Below, in pieces: positions 41,722 to 45,383 of a stretch of DNA of 64,000 nt (the stretch's first letter is position 1; each line of letters starts with the position of its first letter). Under the pieces are notes generated by a model that was given only the letters and a program-made list of their open reading frames with translations, did no database searches and had not been told where the DNA came from. The position numbers were made by a program, and so were the translations under genes. Source of the DNA: Vagococcus xieshaowenii (lineage in GTDB: Bacteria > Bacillota > Bacilli > Lactobacillales > Vagococcaceae); contig NZ_CP038865.1 of assembly GCF_004792515.1 (NCBI RefSeq), positions 580,001 through 644,000 on the forward strand, read 5' to 3'.

Positions 41722-43080
41722 ATGGGAACATTTAATCAAATGAATTTAGCAGACTTTTTAATAAAAGGAATAGAAGCAAAAGGTTTTAAAGAACCAACGG
41801 AAGTACAAGCTCGTTTAATCCCGGTCATTTTGAAGGGACGTAGTGTTGTAGGACAATCACAAACTGGTTCTGGTAAAACTCATACCTTCTTATTACCTTT
41901 AATGAGTAAGCTAGATGCAACAAAAGATGAGGTACAATTAGTTATTACAACGCCTAGTCGTGAGTTGGCTAACCAAATTTATAATGCGACATTAGAGATG
42001 GCAGAATTTAGCGAAGAAGAGATTCGCGTATCAATTTTCGTTGGTGGAACAGATAAGCAACGACAATTAGATAAATTAGGGAACAAACAACCACACATTG
42101 TTATCGGAACACCGGGTCGAATTCTTGATATGATCAATGAACAAGCCTTAAAAATTCATACAGCAACAGCCTTTGTTGTCGATGAAGCCGATATGACATT
42201 AGACATGGGATTCTTAAATGAAGTCGATCAAATTGCTGGACGTTTACCAGAGAACTTACAAATGTTGGTTTTCTCAGCAACCATTCCAGAAAACTTAAAA
42301 CCATTCTTAAAGAAATATATGGCCAACCCATTAATCGAAGTCGTAGAATCAAAAACAGTTATTTCAGATACCATTGACAACTGGTTGATTTCAACGAAAG
42401 GGAAAGACTCAAATAAATTAATTTATGATTTATTACATGTGGGTCAACCTTACTTAGCGATTGTTTTTGCTAATACTAAATCACGTGTTGATGACATTAC
42501 CGAATACTTGAAACAATGTGGTTTAAAAGTGGCTAAAATTCATGGCGATTTACCACCACGCGAACGTAAACGTGTGATGAAACAAGTTCAAAACTTAGAT
42601 TTCCAATACGTTGTGGCAACGGATTTAGCTGCACGTGGGATTGATATCGAGGGTGTTTCTCATGTAATTAATGCAGAAGTACCAAACGAATTAGAATTCT
42701 TTATTCACCGTGTTGGACGTACTGGACGTAATGGATTAGATGGTACAGCGATTACATTGTACGAACCAGGTGATGAACAAGCAATTATCCAATTAGAAAA
42801 AATGGGTATCTCATTCAATCCAAAAGAGTTCCGTAAAGGCGAGCTAGTCGACACTTATGATCGTAACCGTCGTGAAAAACGTGAAAAACAAACGGCCGTT
42901 GAAATTGATCCAAAAATTAAAGGCATGGTTAAAAAGAAAAAGAAAAAAGTAAAACCAGGCTATAAGAAAAAAATTAAATGGGCAATTACAGAAGAAGAGC
43001 GTAAAAAACGTAAAATTACCAATCGTACGAAAGCACGTGCTGACCGTAAAGAACGAAAAGAACAATTTAGCAAAAAATAA
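41722..43080 (+). CDS. cshB: DEAD-box RNA helicase (CshB-like)
   Basis: This 452-residue SF2 helicase remodels RNA, probably in ribosome assembly and cold growth. Motifs in order: Q-motif (FKEPTEVQARLIP), I SQTGSGKT, Ia TPSRELA, II VDEADMTLDMG, III SAT, V ATDLAARGID and VI HRVGRTGR. The C-terminal tail (about 390-452) is extremely Lys/Arg-rich, as in CshB. The start is the ATG at 41722 after AGAGGTG; the GTG at 41713 is inside that site. Confidence 0.92.
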   Translation: MGTFNQMNLADFLIKGIEAKGFKEPTEVQARLIPVILKGRSVVGQSQTGSGKTHTFLLPLMSKLDATKDEVQLVITTPSRELANQIYNATLEMAEFSEEEIRVSIFVGGTDKQRQLDKLGNKQPHIVIGTPGRILDMINEQALKIHTATAFVVDEADMTLDMGFLNEVDQIAGRLPENLQMLVFSATIPENLKPFLKKYMANPLIEVVESKTVISDTIDNWLISTKGKDSNKLIYDLLHVGQPYLAIVFANTKSRVDDITEYLKQCGLKVAKIHGDLPPRERKRVMKQVQNLDFQYVVATDLAARGIDIEGVSHVINAEVPNELEFFIHRVGRTGRNGLDGTAITLYEPGDEQAIIQLEKMGISFNPKEFRKGELVDTYDRNRREKREKQTAVEIDPKIKGMVKKKKKKVKPGYKKKIKWAITEEERKKRKITNRTKARADRKERKEQFSKK

Positions 43081-43093
43081 ACATGTTTTACCG

Positions 43094-43121
43094 GGCATCC
43101 TCAAAAGAGGATGCCTTTTTT
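43094..43121 (+). terminator. cshB terminator
   Basis: Perfect 9-bp stem GGCATCCTC/GAGGATGCC, loop AAAA, six Ts. Confidence 0.95.
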
Positions 43122-43137
43122 ACTAGTTTCTTCATAT

Positions 43138-43153
43138 AATGACCTATACCAAT
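43138..43153. promoter_or_regulatory. dre-like (NagR) site 1 upstream of the glmS promoter
   Basis: The minus strand reads ATTGGTATAGGTCATT; the first 10 bases fit the NagR/DasR palindrome ATTGGTATAGACCAAT. It lies 12 bases before the -35. Confidence 0.5.
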
Positions 43154-43165
43154 TTAAAGAAAAGT

Positions 43166-43194
43166 TTGACAAAGGTCTGTCGTTTTATTATGAT
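43166..43194 (+). promoter_or_regulatory. glmS promoter
   Basis: TTGACA (43166-43171), 17-base spacer, TATGAT (43189-43194). Confidence 0.88.
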
Positions 43195-43224
43195 TTATAT
43201 GTTTCTAAAAAAGATTTAAGGAGG

Positions 43225-43240
43225 ATAGGTGTATACCAAT
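43225..43240. promoter_or_regulatory. dre-like (NagR) site 2 in the glmS leader
   Basis: ATAGGTGTATACCAAT matches the palindrome at 14 of 16 positions on the minus strand. It shares TATACCAATT with site 1 and lies about 25 bases after the expected transcription start. Confidence 0.6.
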
Positions 43241-43333
43241 TGGATAGCGCCAGTTCTATTTTACAAAAATAGAAGACGAGGAGAGATCTTATCGAATAAT
43301 TCGGCGGGTAGTTCTCGGGGAGTGGGCTCCTAA
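43229..43333 (+). CDS. Possible 34-codon leader reading frame across the glmS ribozyme
   Basis: GTG at 43229 lies 4 bases after a perfect Shine-Dalgarno AAGGAGG (43218-43224), and the frame stays open for 34 codons to TAA at 43331-43333. It runs through the ribozyme cleavage site and core helices. The predicted peptide begins MYTNWIAPVLFYKNRRR and resembles nothing I know. The frame may be accidental, because the sequence is constrained as RNA. What argues for translation is the strong ribosome site with no other frame behind it. Confidence 0.35.
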   Translation: MYTNWIAPVLFYKNRRRGEILSNNSAGSSRGVGS

Positions 43334-43380
43334 GATTTCTAACAAAACTTACTGAAAAGAAAGCACAAAAGAGAAATCAA
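43246..43380 (+). ncRNA. glmS ribozyme (glucosamine-6-phosphate-activated)
   Basis: Conserved elements appear in order: the cleavage site A-GCGCCAG (cut expected between 43246 and 43247); a perfect TTCTATTTT/AAAATAGAA stem; GACGAGGAGAGA; TATCGAA; TTCGGCGGGTAGTTCTC; GGAG-TGGG-CTCC; and closing arms GATTTCT (43334-43340) and AGAAATC (43372-43378). When glucosamine-6-phosphate is abundant, the RNA cuts itself and the glmS message is degraded. The P4-type hairpin region is short but recognisable. Confidence 0.93.
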
Positions 43381-43429
43381 CCACTAGAAACACATTTTAA
43401 AATTTATAGATGAAAGTTGGAAAAGAAAA

Positions 43430-45250
43430 ATGTGTGGAATCGTAGGATTAATTGGATTAGAAAATGTTACTGAAGGATTAGTGAATGGCTTAAGTCACTT
43501 AGAATATCGTGGGTATGACTCAGCAGGCGTGTATGTTGATACACCAGGTGCTATGAGTTTCACTGTTAAAACAAAAGGTCGTATTAATGACCTGCGAGAA
43601 GAAATTGAAAAAACAGGTGACGTGACAGGTTTCCGTGGAATTGGTCATACACGTTGGGCAACACATGGTAAACCAAAAACAGAAAATGCGCACCCTCATA
43701 CATCATACAATGGTCGTTTTGTGTTAGTACATAACGGGGTTATCGAAAACTTCAAAGAAATCAAAGATAATTATATCAATGATGAATGGTTACAAGGTGA
43801 AACTGATACAGAAATGATCGTTCACTTAGTGGCTAAAATCGCTGAAGAAGAAAACTTATCAGCAAAAGACGCCTTTAAGAAAGCTTTAACGATTGTTGAA
43901 GGTTCATATGCGTTTGCTTTAGCTGATAAAGAAGAACCTGAAGTATTATATGTGGCAAAAAATAAAAGTCCGTTGTTAGTCGCTAGTGGTGAAGACTTTA
44001 ACGGAGTATGTTCAGATGCGCTAGCTTTAATCGAATTAACGAATCAATTTGTTGAGATTAACGATAAAGAAATGGTGACAGTCACTAAAGAAGGTATCAT
44101 GATTGAAGATTTAGCTGGCCAAGTACAAGAACGAAAGGCAATTGAATTTTCAATTACTGCTAACGATTTAGCTTTAGGAACATATGAACATTACATGCTA
44201 AAAGAAATCGAAGAACAACCAGCTGTTATGCGTAATATTCTAGCTCACTACGTTAACGAAGATGATGAAGTTGTCGTGGACGATGAAATTGTTGAAGCGT
44301 TCTCTAAAGCAGACCGTGTTTATATTATTGCTTGTGGTACTAGTTGGAATGCTGGTTTAGTAGGTAAGACTATTATCGAAACATTAGCGGGTATTCCAAC
44401 TGAAGTTCATTTAGCGAGTGAGTTTGGCTATAACACACCTTTACTATCAGAAAAACCATTCTTCATCTATCTAAGTCAAAGTGGTGAAACAGCTGATAGT
44501 CGCCAAGTACTTGTAAAAACAAATAAATTAGGTTATCCAGCTTTGACTGTAACGAATGTTGCGGGTTCAACGTTATCACGTGAAGCAAACTATACAATGT
44601 TATTACATGCTGGTCCTGAAATTGCGGTCGCTTCAACCAAAGCATACACAGCCCAAATTGCTGTCTTATCAATTTTAGCAAGTGTAACGGGTAAAAATAA
44701 AGGGATCGAAGTAGCACAGAATTTCGATGTGAAACAAGAATTAAGTTTAGTCGCAAACAACATGGATAGTCTATTAACGGATGAAAATAAATTCCCATCG
44801 TTAGTTCATAATTTATTAGCTGAAACAAGAAATGCTTTTTATATTGGTAGAGGAACAGATTATTCTGTTTCATTAGAAGCATCGCTTAAATTAAAAGAAA
44901 TTTCATACATTCAATGTGAAGGTTTTGCTTCAGGTGAATTAAAGCATGGAACGATTGCTTTAATCGAGGAAGGTACACCAGTCATTGCGTTGATTACTGC
45001 AGACCATACAAATTTACAAACGAGAAGTAATATTCAAGAAGTAAAAAGTCGTGGAGCGAAAACATGTATTATTTCTATGGAAGATGTCGCACAGGAAGGT
45101 GACGATGTCGTCTTACCACATGTTCATCCGCTTTATACAGCATTGGTAAGTGTCTTGCCAACACAATTGATTGCATACTACGCAACCTTAGAACGTGGTC
45201 TTGACGTTGATAAACCACGTAACTTAGCGAAGAGTGTAACAGTAGAATAA
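43430..45250 (+). CDS. glmS: Glutamine--fructose-6-phosphate aminotransferase (isomerizing)
   Basis: GlmS makes glucosamine-6-phosphate, the first committed amino sugar for peptidoglycan and teichoic acids. The 606-residue enzyme has N-terminal nucleophile Cys2 (MCGIVGLIG), the glutaminase loops GHTRWATHG and HNGVIEN, and two SIS domains (ACGTSWNAG, LSQSGETADS). The ribosome site is weak and A-rich (GTTGGAAAAG), in keeping with control at the message level. nagB, encoding the opposing enzyme, is the next gene. Confidence 0.98.
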   Translation: MCGIVGLIGLENVTEGLVNGLSHLEYRGYDSAGVYVDTPGAMSFTVKTKGRINDLREEIEKTGDVTGFRGIGHTRWATHGKPKTENAHPHTSYNGRFVLVHNGVIENFKEIKDNYINDEWLQGETDTEMIVHLVAKIAEEENLSAKDAFKKALTIVEGSYAFALADKEEPEVLYVAKNKSPLLVASGEDFNGVCSDALALIELTNQFVEINDKEMVTVTKEGIMIEDLAGQVQERKAIEFSITANDLALGTYEHYMLKEIEEQPAVMRNILAHYVNEDDEVVVDDEIVEAFSKADRVYIIACGTSWNAGLVGKTIIETLAGIPTEVHLASEFGYNTPLLSEKPFFIYLSQSGETADSRQVLVKTNKLGYPALTVTNVAGSTLSREANYTMLLHAGPEIAVASTKAYTAQIAVLSILASVTGKNKGIEVAQNFDVKQELSLVANNMDSLLTDENKFPSLVHNLLAETRNAFYIGRGTDYSVSLEASLKLKEISYIQCEGFASGELKHGTIALIEEGTPVIALITADHTNLQTRSNIQEVKSRGAKTCIISMEDVAQEGDDVVLPHVHPLYTALVSVLPTQLIAYYATLERGLDVDKPRNLAKSVTVE

Positions 45251-45315: not shown

Positions 45316-45344
45316 TTGCAATTGGTCTATAAATGGTATATGAT
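45316..45344 (+). promoter_or_regulatory. nagB promoter
   Basis: TTGCAA (45316-45321), 17-base spacer, TATGAT (45339-45344). Confidence 0.8.
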
Positions 45345-45358
45345 TGGGCTATACCAAA
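45321..45358. promoter_or_regulatory. Two dre-like (NagR) sites at nagB
   Basis: ATTGGTCTAT at 45321-45330 is a full half-site inside the promoter spacer. ATTGGGCTATACCAAA (45343-45358) is a palindrome over the -10 end and expected start. Both positions would repress nagB. Confidence 0.65.
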
Positions 45359-45383
45359 AAAAGATGTTATGGAGGTCTCACCT

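Follow-up and report, generated by a model that had tools for sequence, protein, structure and literature searches.

What does a strong Shine–Dalgarno (SD) sequence do in the leader of glmS, upstream of the site at which the glmS ribozyme cuts its own message? The question is raised by a 64,000-nt stretch of Vagococcus xieshaowenii DNA (contig NZ_CP038865.1, positions 580,001–644,000; hereafter ‘the window’), for which it had been proposed that ribosomes translate from this SD straight through the ribozyme. The features of the locus, in window coordinates, are as follows.

43140–43155, + strand: upstream NagR (dre)-like operator, TGACCTATACCAATTT, resembling the dre sites of S. pneumoniae PglmS
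43166–43194, + strand: sigma-70 promoter, TTGACA-17-TATGAT, 11/12 consensus bases
43200–43207, + strand: 5′ strand of the P0 helix, UGUUUCUA, at the predicted transcription start, placed by covariation
43218–43224, + strand: orphan SD, AAGGAGG, proposed site of 30S docking and of an RNase J roadblock
43227–43243, + strand: NagR (dre)-like operator within the leader, AGGTGTATACCAATTGG; the proposed GTG start lies inside it
43229–43333, + strand: 34-codon frame, GTG to TAA, not conserved and probably not a gene
43235–43388, + strand: glmS ribozyme (RF00234), cleavage at 43246/43247
43385–43392, + strand: 3′ strand of the P0 helix, UAGAAACA, directly past ribozyme helix P4
43390–43435, + strand: start-codon hairpin, ACACAUUUU (43390–43398) / AAAAUGUGU (43427–43435)
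43430–45250, + strand: glmS, glucosamine-6-phosphate synthase, 606 aa

The RF00234 match scores 86.6 bits against a gathering threshold of 37, placing the element within the ribozyme family. GCGCC starts at 43247, the first base past the cut, and the gene itself starts at 43430, its product sharing 68% identity over the best segment with GlmS of Vagococcus elongatus. Two promoter-like sites were found in 43000–43450 (1.4 expected); from the near-consensus promoter at 43166–43194, transcription is predicted to start near 43201.

An orphan Shine–Dalgarno before the cleavage site

The perfect AAGGAGG reported for 43218–43224 is present to the letter, followed by ATAG and then GTG at 43229–43231. 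Its strength is likewise borne out: with the 16S tail (TGGATCACCTCCTTTCTA, which occurs 5 times in the window's genome) the 48 nt before the ribozyme give a duplex of −12.1 kcal/mol (mean of shuffles −7.7 kcal/mol), whereas the 30 nt before glmS give −7.5 kcal/mol, in keeping with the weak ribosome site ascribed to the gene. No gene evidently served by the orphan SD lies downstream of it, as had also been remarked. The leader pairs with the 16S 3′ end as strongly as is looked for in a STAB-SD. Since the message is predicted to begin near 43201, the SD would lie about 17 nt into it, a predicted position that would also suit a STAB-SD.

For counts across leaders, an SD was scored when a match to the 16S complement was 5 bases long or longer and included part of the GGAGG core. 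Such an SD precedes the cleavage site in 108/137 Lactobacillales leaders (31/38 genera) and in 48/69 leaders from other Bacilli (38/54 genera), and a core match is found in 21/45 leaders from other Bacillota (mean duplex energy −12.0 kcal/mol, shuffles −8.5). Mean energies with the 16S tail were −10.5 kcal/mol in Lactobacillales (n = 137; dinucleotide shuffles −7.2) and −13.4 in other Bacilli (n = 69; dinucleotide shuffles −9.2), with values of −3.7 and −6.9, respectively, for the DNA 102–150 nt before the cleavage site. Some leaders from other Bacilli carry 10–11 bases of the 16S complement, for example TAGAAAGGAGG. The equivalent stretch before riboswitches of the same order contained an SD in 0/29 purine and 3/30 TPP cases. 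Recurrence in relatives shows the SD to be no chance match; across the leaders compared, it is a conserved part of many glmS leaders.

It is missing, nonetheless, from 29/137 Lactobacillales leaders. In the window's own family 13/27 leaders have it and 14/27 do not, while it is present in 23/29 leaders of family f5 and 32/34 of family f8. By eye, a number of Enterococcus avium-like and Aerococcus-like leaders (L003, L004, L007, L008, L010, L015 and L016) have no SD, and in these a small hairpin (ATC...GAT) ends at the cleavage site.

The distance from the end of the SD core to the cut is narrowly distributed in Lactobacillales (median 21 nt, middle half 19–23) and looser elsewhere (median 26, middle half 23–45, in other Bacilli; median 47 in other Bacillota). 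When the usual gap between an SD and its start codon is added to the reach of the 30S toeprint, the sum comes close to this distance, so that a docked 30S subunit would just fit before the folded ribozyme. The toeprint lies at +16 from the start codon (PMC5419742).

Over 30 nt, the ribosome sites of glmS itself averaged −9.6 kcal/mol in Lactobacillales and −11.2 in other Bacilli. In Lactobacillales, energies of −8 or below were reached by 111/137 leaders and by 127/136 of the gene's own sites (48 nt being tested in the former and 30 nt in the latter), while 60/137 leader SDs, against 3/136 own sites, passed −12.

The reading frame through the ribozyme

The frame described for the window exists, running for 34 codons from GTG 43229 to TAA at 43331–43333 and crossing the cleavage site at 43246/43247, so that an SD and an open frame are found together there. 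It is, however, absent from all three relatives searched within the genus, each of which has a ribozyme above the cut-off. In L026 (genome G003) the GTG is followed by TAG at codon 2; L027 (G002) has no SD and meets a TAA immediately ahead of the cut; and in L028 (G001), whose leader is identical over 200 nt to that of V. elongatus (L002), the frame ends at a TAG spanning the cleavage site. Early stops or a missing SD beside a retained ribozyme, which the original prediction had named as evidence against itself, are thus what these relatives display. Furthermore, mononucleotide shuffling leaves all 33 post-start codons of this frame open in 9.6% of cases, so the openness seen in the window may be due to chance.

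Start codons were not enriched after the SD. ATG, GTG or TTG occurred 4–12 nt past it in 20/108 Lactobacillales leaders, compared with 32.1 expected from local composition, and ATG alone in 5/108 (16.9 expected); the 48 SD-bearing leaders from other Bacilli had 11 start codons (18.4 expected), of which ATG accounted for 4 (8.5 expected). Repeating the start-codon count with the SD defined by duplex energy gave 17/97 (29.0 expected) in Lactobacillales, 17/61 (22.7) in other Bacilli and 9/32 (12.9) in other Bacillota, the last with ATG at chance (5 versus 5.9). The deficit is small when one leader is taken per genus (6 versus 10.5 expected; 10 versus 14.6). Start codons being at or below chance, the SD in general appears to serve no frame, and start codons after it are, if anything, avoided. 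In 36/108 SD-bearing Lactobacillales leaders the frame proposed for the window stays open as far as the cut, and 3/108, the window included, have a frame of at least 30 codons. The conserved start codon and open frame that would mark a uORF are therefore not found after the SD across leaders: of the features whose retention in relatives was to be checked, the SD is kept in many leaders and the start codon and open frame are not. Start codons no commoner than chance would fit an SD that is not translated, but in the window itself a GTG does follow, just 4 nt after the SD. The bases around it (GTGTATACCAAT) form, by motif resemblance, part of a NagR-like operator, a further point against a translated frame.

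Sites of the CTATACCAATT type near a nag or glmS promoter are the sign of NagR (dre) control, and two candidates flank the promoter in the window; dre sites of this form, whose letters are given, were tested in the glmS promoter of S. pneumoniae (PMC5110562). An upstream dre-like motif occurs in 27/27 f1 and 36/39 f3 leaders, and motifs on both sides of the promoter in 22/27 and 34/39, respectively, all four counts being without a chance control. There was no leader dre-like match in families f5 (0/29) and f8 (0/34). In most f1 and f3 leaders dre accounts for the bases that follow the SD; start codons numbered 9 (17.9 expected) in families with the leader operator and 11 (14.9 expected) in those without, the shortage persisting in both. 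Conservation as a DNA operator alone was rejected as an explanation of the SD, which is kept in f5 and f8. The two dre-like operators flanking the promoter, a layout shared by most f1 and f3 leaders, suggest that NagR and the ribozyme probably both control glmS. The downstream operator of the window (43227–43243) is transcribed into the glmS leader.

On the evidence of the relatives and the start-codon counts, the reading frame through the ribozyme was rejected. The window's 34-codon frame is probably not a gene, and translation from GTG 43229 through the ribozyme, unfolding the RNA as originally written, is very unlikely. Of the protection that ribosomes were proposed to give the message, binding at the SD is plausible by inference, and movement along the frame is not upheld. 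On the other side stand leaders L202, L302 and L338, exceptional in having a well-spaced ATG after the SD and a frame that passes the cut. Together with L212 and L219, these leaders (of Bacillales type or from other Bacillota) have a full or near-full SD with a start codon 4–6 nt on, and their frames past the cleavage site may encode a genuine leader peptide.

A long-range helix around the ribozyme

Comparison of leaders revealed a helix, here termed P0, in which the bases predicted to begin the transcript (43200–43207) pair with 43385–43392, directly past the ribozyme. Its strands are TGTTTCTA / TAGAAACA in the window and, in other leaders, for example GCTTTTAG / CTAAAAGC, GTATTTCTAA / TTAGAAATAC and GACTACTTAT / ATAAGTAGTC. 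At least 7 P0 pairs at the expected place were found in 99/103 Lactobacillales leaders outside f8 (34/35 genera), representing 84 distinct patterns, with three to six standard pair types per column. For columns −4 to +3 of the 3′ strand, the number of patterns (of 84) that pair is 71, 84, 84, 84, 84, 84, 82 and 79, against maxima of 49, 50, 55, 71, 66, 75, 60 and 49 in 500 shuffles. These column figures, shuffles included, make the support look stronger than it is, since the 99 leaders had been selected for the stem and complementarity had been used to place the 5′ strand. The fair control is provided by swapped pairs, put through the same search as real pairs: 91/103 leaders outside f8 attain a stem score attained by 20% of swapped pairs, and with f8 included a score of 18 is found in 92/137 Lactobacillales leaders versus 14% of swaps.

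Listeria-like f8 leaders differ in arrangement, the partner of GTTTCCTTG being CAAGGAAAC, displaced by about 14 nt downstream, and some other f8 leaders (L074, L156 and L157) gave no convincing P0. In L052 and other Listeria-like loci of L052–L081, a CCUCC adjoining the P0 3′ strand is a possible pairing partner of the orphan SD. No P0 was seen in the 69 leaders from other Bacilli, where 4/69 reached a score of at least 16 (0.08 of swapped pairs) and a second count gave 3/69 (3% of swaps). With P0 present in 99/103 leaders outside f8 and the SD in 32/34 within it, almost none of the Lactobacillales leaders examined is without both.

Of 119 leaders with a stem score of at least 18, 115 had a recognisable promoter, and in 103 of these the 5′ strand of P0 begins 4–7 nt past the −10 element (5 nt in the window), where transcription is expected to start. 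In most compared leaders outside f8, the 3′ strand is offset by −3 to −6 from the end of the RF00234 match, which ends within that strand; P0 is not part of the Rfam model, to which it adds a strongly covarying helix. In the window the minimum-energy fold lacks P0, and forcing it costs 0.8 kcal/mol relative to the free minimum. Covariation and the predicted start site together place the first bases of the message in a pairing, as in a 5′-terminal stem. We conclude from the covariation that P0 is a new helix, conserved in many Lactobacillales glmS leaders.

A candidate detachable 5′ stabiliser

Messages of Bacilli are reported to be stabilised both by a strong SD that no start codon follows and by occlusion of the 5′ end (PMC3997798), and start-codon-free stability is reported for ermC and ompA (PMC7509114). 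Since both determinants sit on the piece that is cut away, the simplest reading is a STAB-SD/5′-occlusion stabiliser made removable by a ribozyme: the region before the ribozyme would be a detachable 5′ stabiliser, composed of SD and P0 and removed by self-cleavage, a view that we hold with about even confidence. Its parts are well supported, sequence comparison establishing the conservation and position of the SD, the lack of a start-codon excess after it, and the covariation and position of P0; the mechanism, comprising 30S docking, protection and loss of protection on cleavage, is one that we infer, and it stands about as good a chance of being right as wrong.

According to this model, the first approximately 8 bases of the glmS transcript would pair past the ribozyme in P0, hiding the 5′ end. 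In the space from this helix to the cut, a ribosome or its 30S subunit would dock on the start-less SD and block RNase J, as in STAB-SD leaders; by these two means the uncleaved message would last. Glucosamine-6-phosphate would induce self-cleavage, on which the SD and the P0 5′ strand would leave on a short 5′ fragment and the coding part would be left with an unprotected 5′-OH end, open to RNase J. P0 occurs in Lactobacillales, often together with the SD; in many other Bacilli the SD is found and P0 is not.

In the cryIIIA (cry3A) leader of Bacillus thuringiensis, as in the window, an SD-like sequence complementary to the 16S tail lies near the 5′ end; this STAB-SD is not used for translation, and by binding 30S it stops RNase J1 (PMC4113751, PMC3997798). 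The window SD differs in lying on a fragment cut off by a ligand-driven ribozyme, so that the putative protection would be removable. On hbs mRNA of B. subtilis, too, a ribosome blocks 5′–3′ decay, guarding against RNase J1; there, however, the ribosomes initiate translation, and the glmS leader has no conserved start codon. Pairing of the first bases hinders RppH and RNases both in bla with a 5′ hairpin (PMC3997798) and in yflS, whose 5′ end pairs with the sRNA RoxS (PMC5419742). P0, in contrast, is a long-range pairing in cis that encloses a ribozyme, and its 5′ strand lies ahead of the cut. A 5′-terminal stem is a stabiliser in ompA as well. The B. subtilis glmS leader has the same ribozyme and gene as the window, and its cleaved mRNA, with a 5′-OH end, is degraded by RNase J1 (PMC3997798, PMC3328962, PMC11780869). 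The accounts of it, in the portions available, attribute the switch to the 5′-OH end and mention neither a stabilising SD nor a helix outside the ribozyme.

In the open-access literature, as far as its partial coverage goes, neither an SD upstream of the glmS cut nor a helix that closes the ribozyme was found described, and the passages on ‘glmS’ and on ‘STAB-SD’ do not bring the two together. If SD and P0 do protect, self-cleavage discards a dedicated stabiliser, beyond making a vulnerable end, and this would help to account for the tight control of one message by one cut. Against a stabiliser stand the presence of the SD in only 13/27 leaders of the window's family and its absence from the genus relative L027; P0 could, moreover, retain the 5′ fragment after cleavage, which would weaken the idea of stabiliser loss. 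Further points on that side, from the results above, are the lack of P0 in other Bacilli, the looser SD-to-cut distance outside Lactobacillales, the strength of the gene's own sites, which the leader SD does not always surpass, the window's minimum-energy fold without P0, the small start-codon deficit per genus and the well-spaced ATG of a few leaders.

Other readings give the two elements different work. P0 might merely insulate or close the ribozyme fold, with the SD a purine-rich, single-stranded spacer. P0 does enclose the whole ribozyme, much as P1 closes a riboswitch, and beyond P4 the place of its 3′ strand is nearly fixed. A spacer, however, would not account for an SD that pairs with the 16S tail better than shuffles of equal composition do and is complementary to it over as many as 11 nt, nor does P0 sit at the ribozyme edge, being found instead at the predicted first transcript bases; this reading is rather unlikely. 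Regulation of ribozyme folding by pairing of the SD with CCUCC in the ribozyme is suggested by the CCUCC beside the P0 3′ strand of Listeria-like f8 leaders and by the occurrence of CCTCC, in Lactobacillales, in 22/108 leaders with an SD and 0/29 without. The remaining 86/108 SD leaders lack CCTCC, however; in other Bacilli it is found in 28/48 leaders with an SD and 16/21 without; and native stems score the same as swapped ones or lower (11.1 versus 11.1; 12.5 versus 12.9). Native pairs being no better than swapped, this pairing was rejected, and we regard it as extremely unlikely.

A further alternative is that the orphan SD loads ribosomes, capturing 30S subunits that P0 would bring near the glmS start, with cleavage removing the loader. 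P0 indeed places the SD near that start, where the window's own site is weaker than the orphan SD (values above) and the glmS AUG lies in the stem of the ACACAUUUU / AAAAUGUGU hairpin, with predicted pairing of 0.90–0.95. Set against this, the SD is kept in Bacilli that lack P0, well over 200 nt before glmS, and in Lactobacillales the sites of glmS itself come close to the leader SD in mean strength; loading is accordingly an unlikely role.

The detachable stabiliser might also be coupled to translation. Positions 43390–43392 of the window are common to the P0 3′ strand and the start-codon hairpin, and in the folding program forcing P0 shortens that hairpin, an overlap that would allow a switch. 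Intact RNA would form P0 and keep the start hairpin short; cleavage would remove the orphan SD together with the 5′ strand of P0, and the full 9-pair hairpin would then close on the AUG, ending translation before decay. A single cut would in that case turn off loading, translation and stability together. Of the 137 Lactobacillales leaders, 93 were tested for a hairpin at the start codon, and 33 of these gave a score of at least 16, compared with 9% of swapped pairs. That the Lactobacillales glmS ribozyme also governs translation by this sharing of bases is, in our estimation, improbable to the same degree as loading. The weak glmS ribosome site lies in the loop of the hairpin (43390–43435), and some relatives have the hairpin with altered letters.

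Two further dre-like sequences (ATTGGTCTATA and GGGCTATACCAAA) lie at 45320–45359 of the window, upstream of the gene after glmS, which we take to be nagB (glucosamine-6-phosphate deaminase). In addition, glmS leaders from named Lactobacillales that, by a pattern rule, lack the ribozyme (L009, L011, L012, L013, L014, L018, L019 and L025) have, by eye, a dre-like sequence near the promoter.
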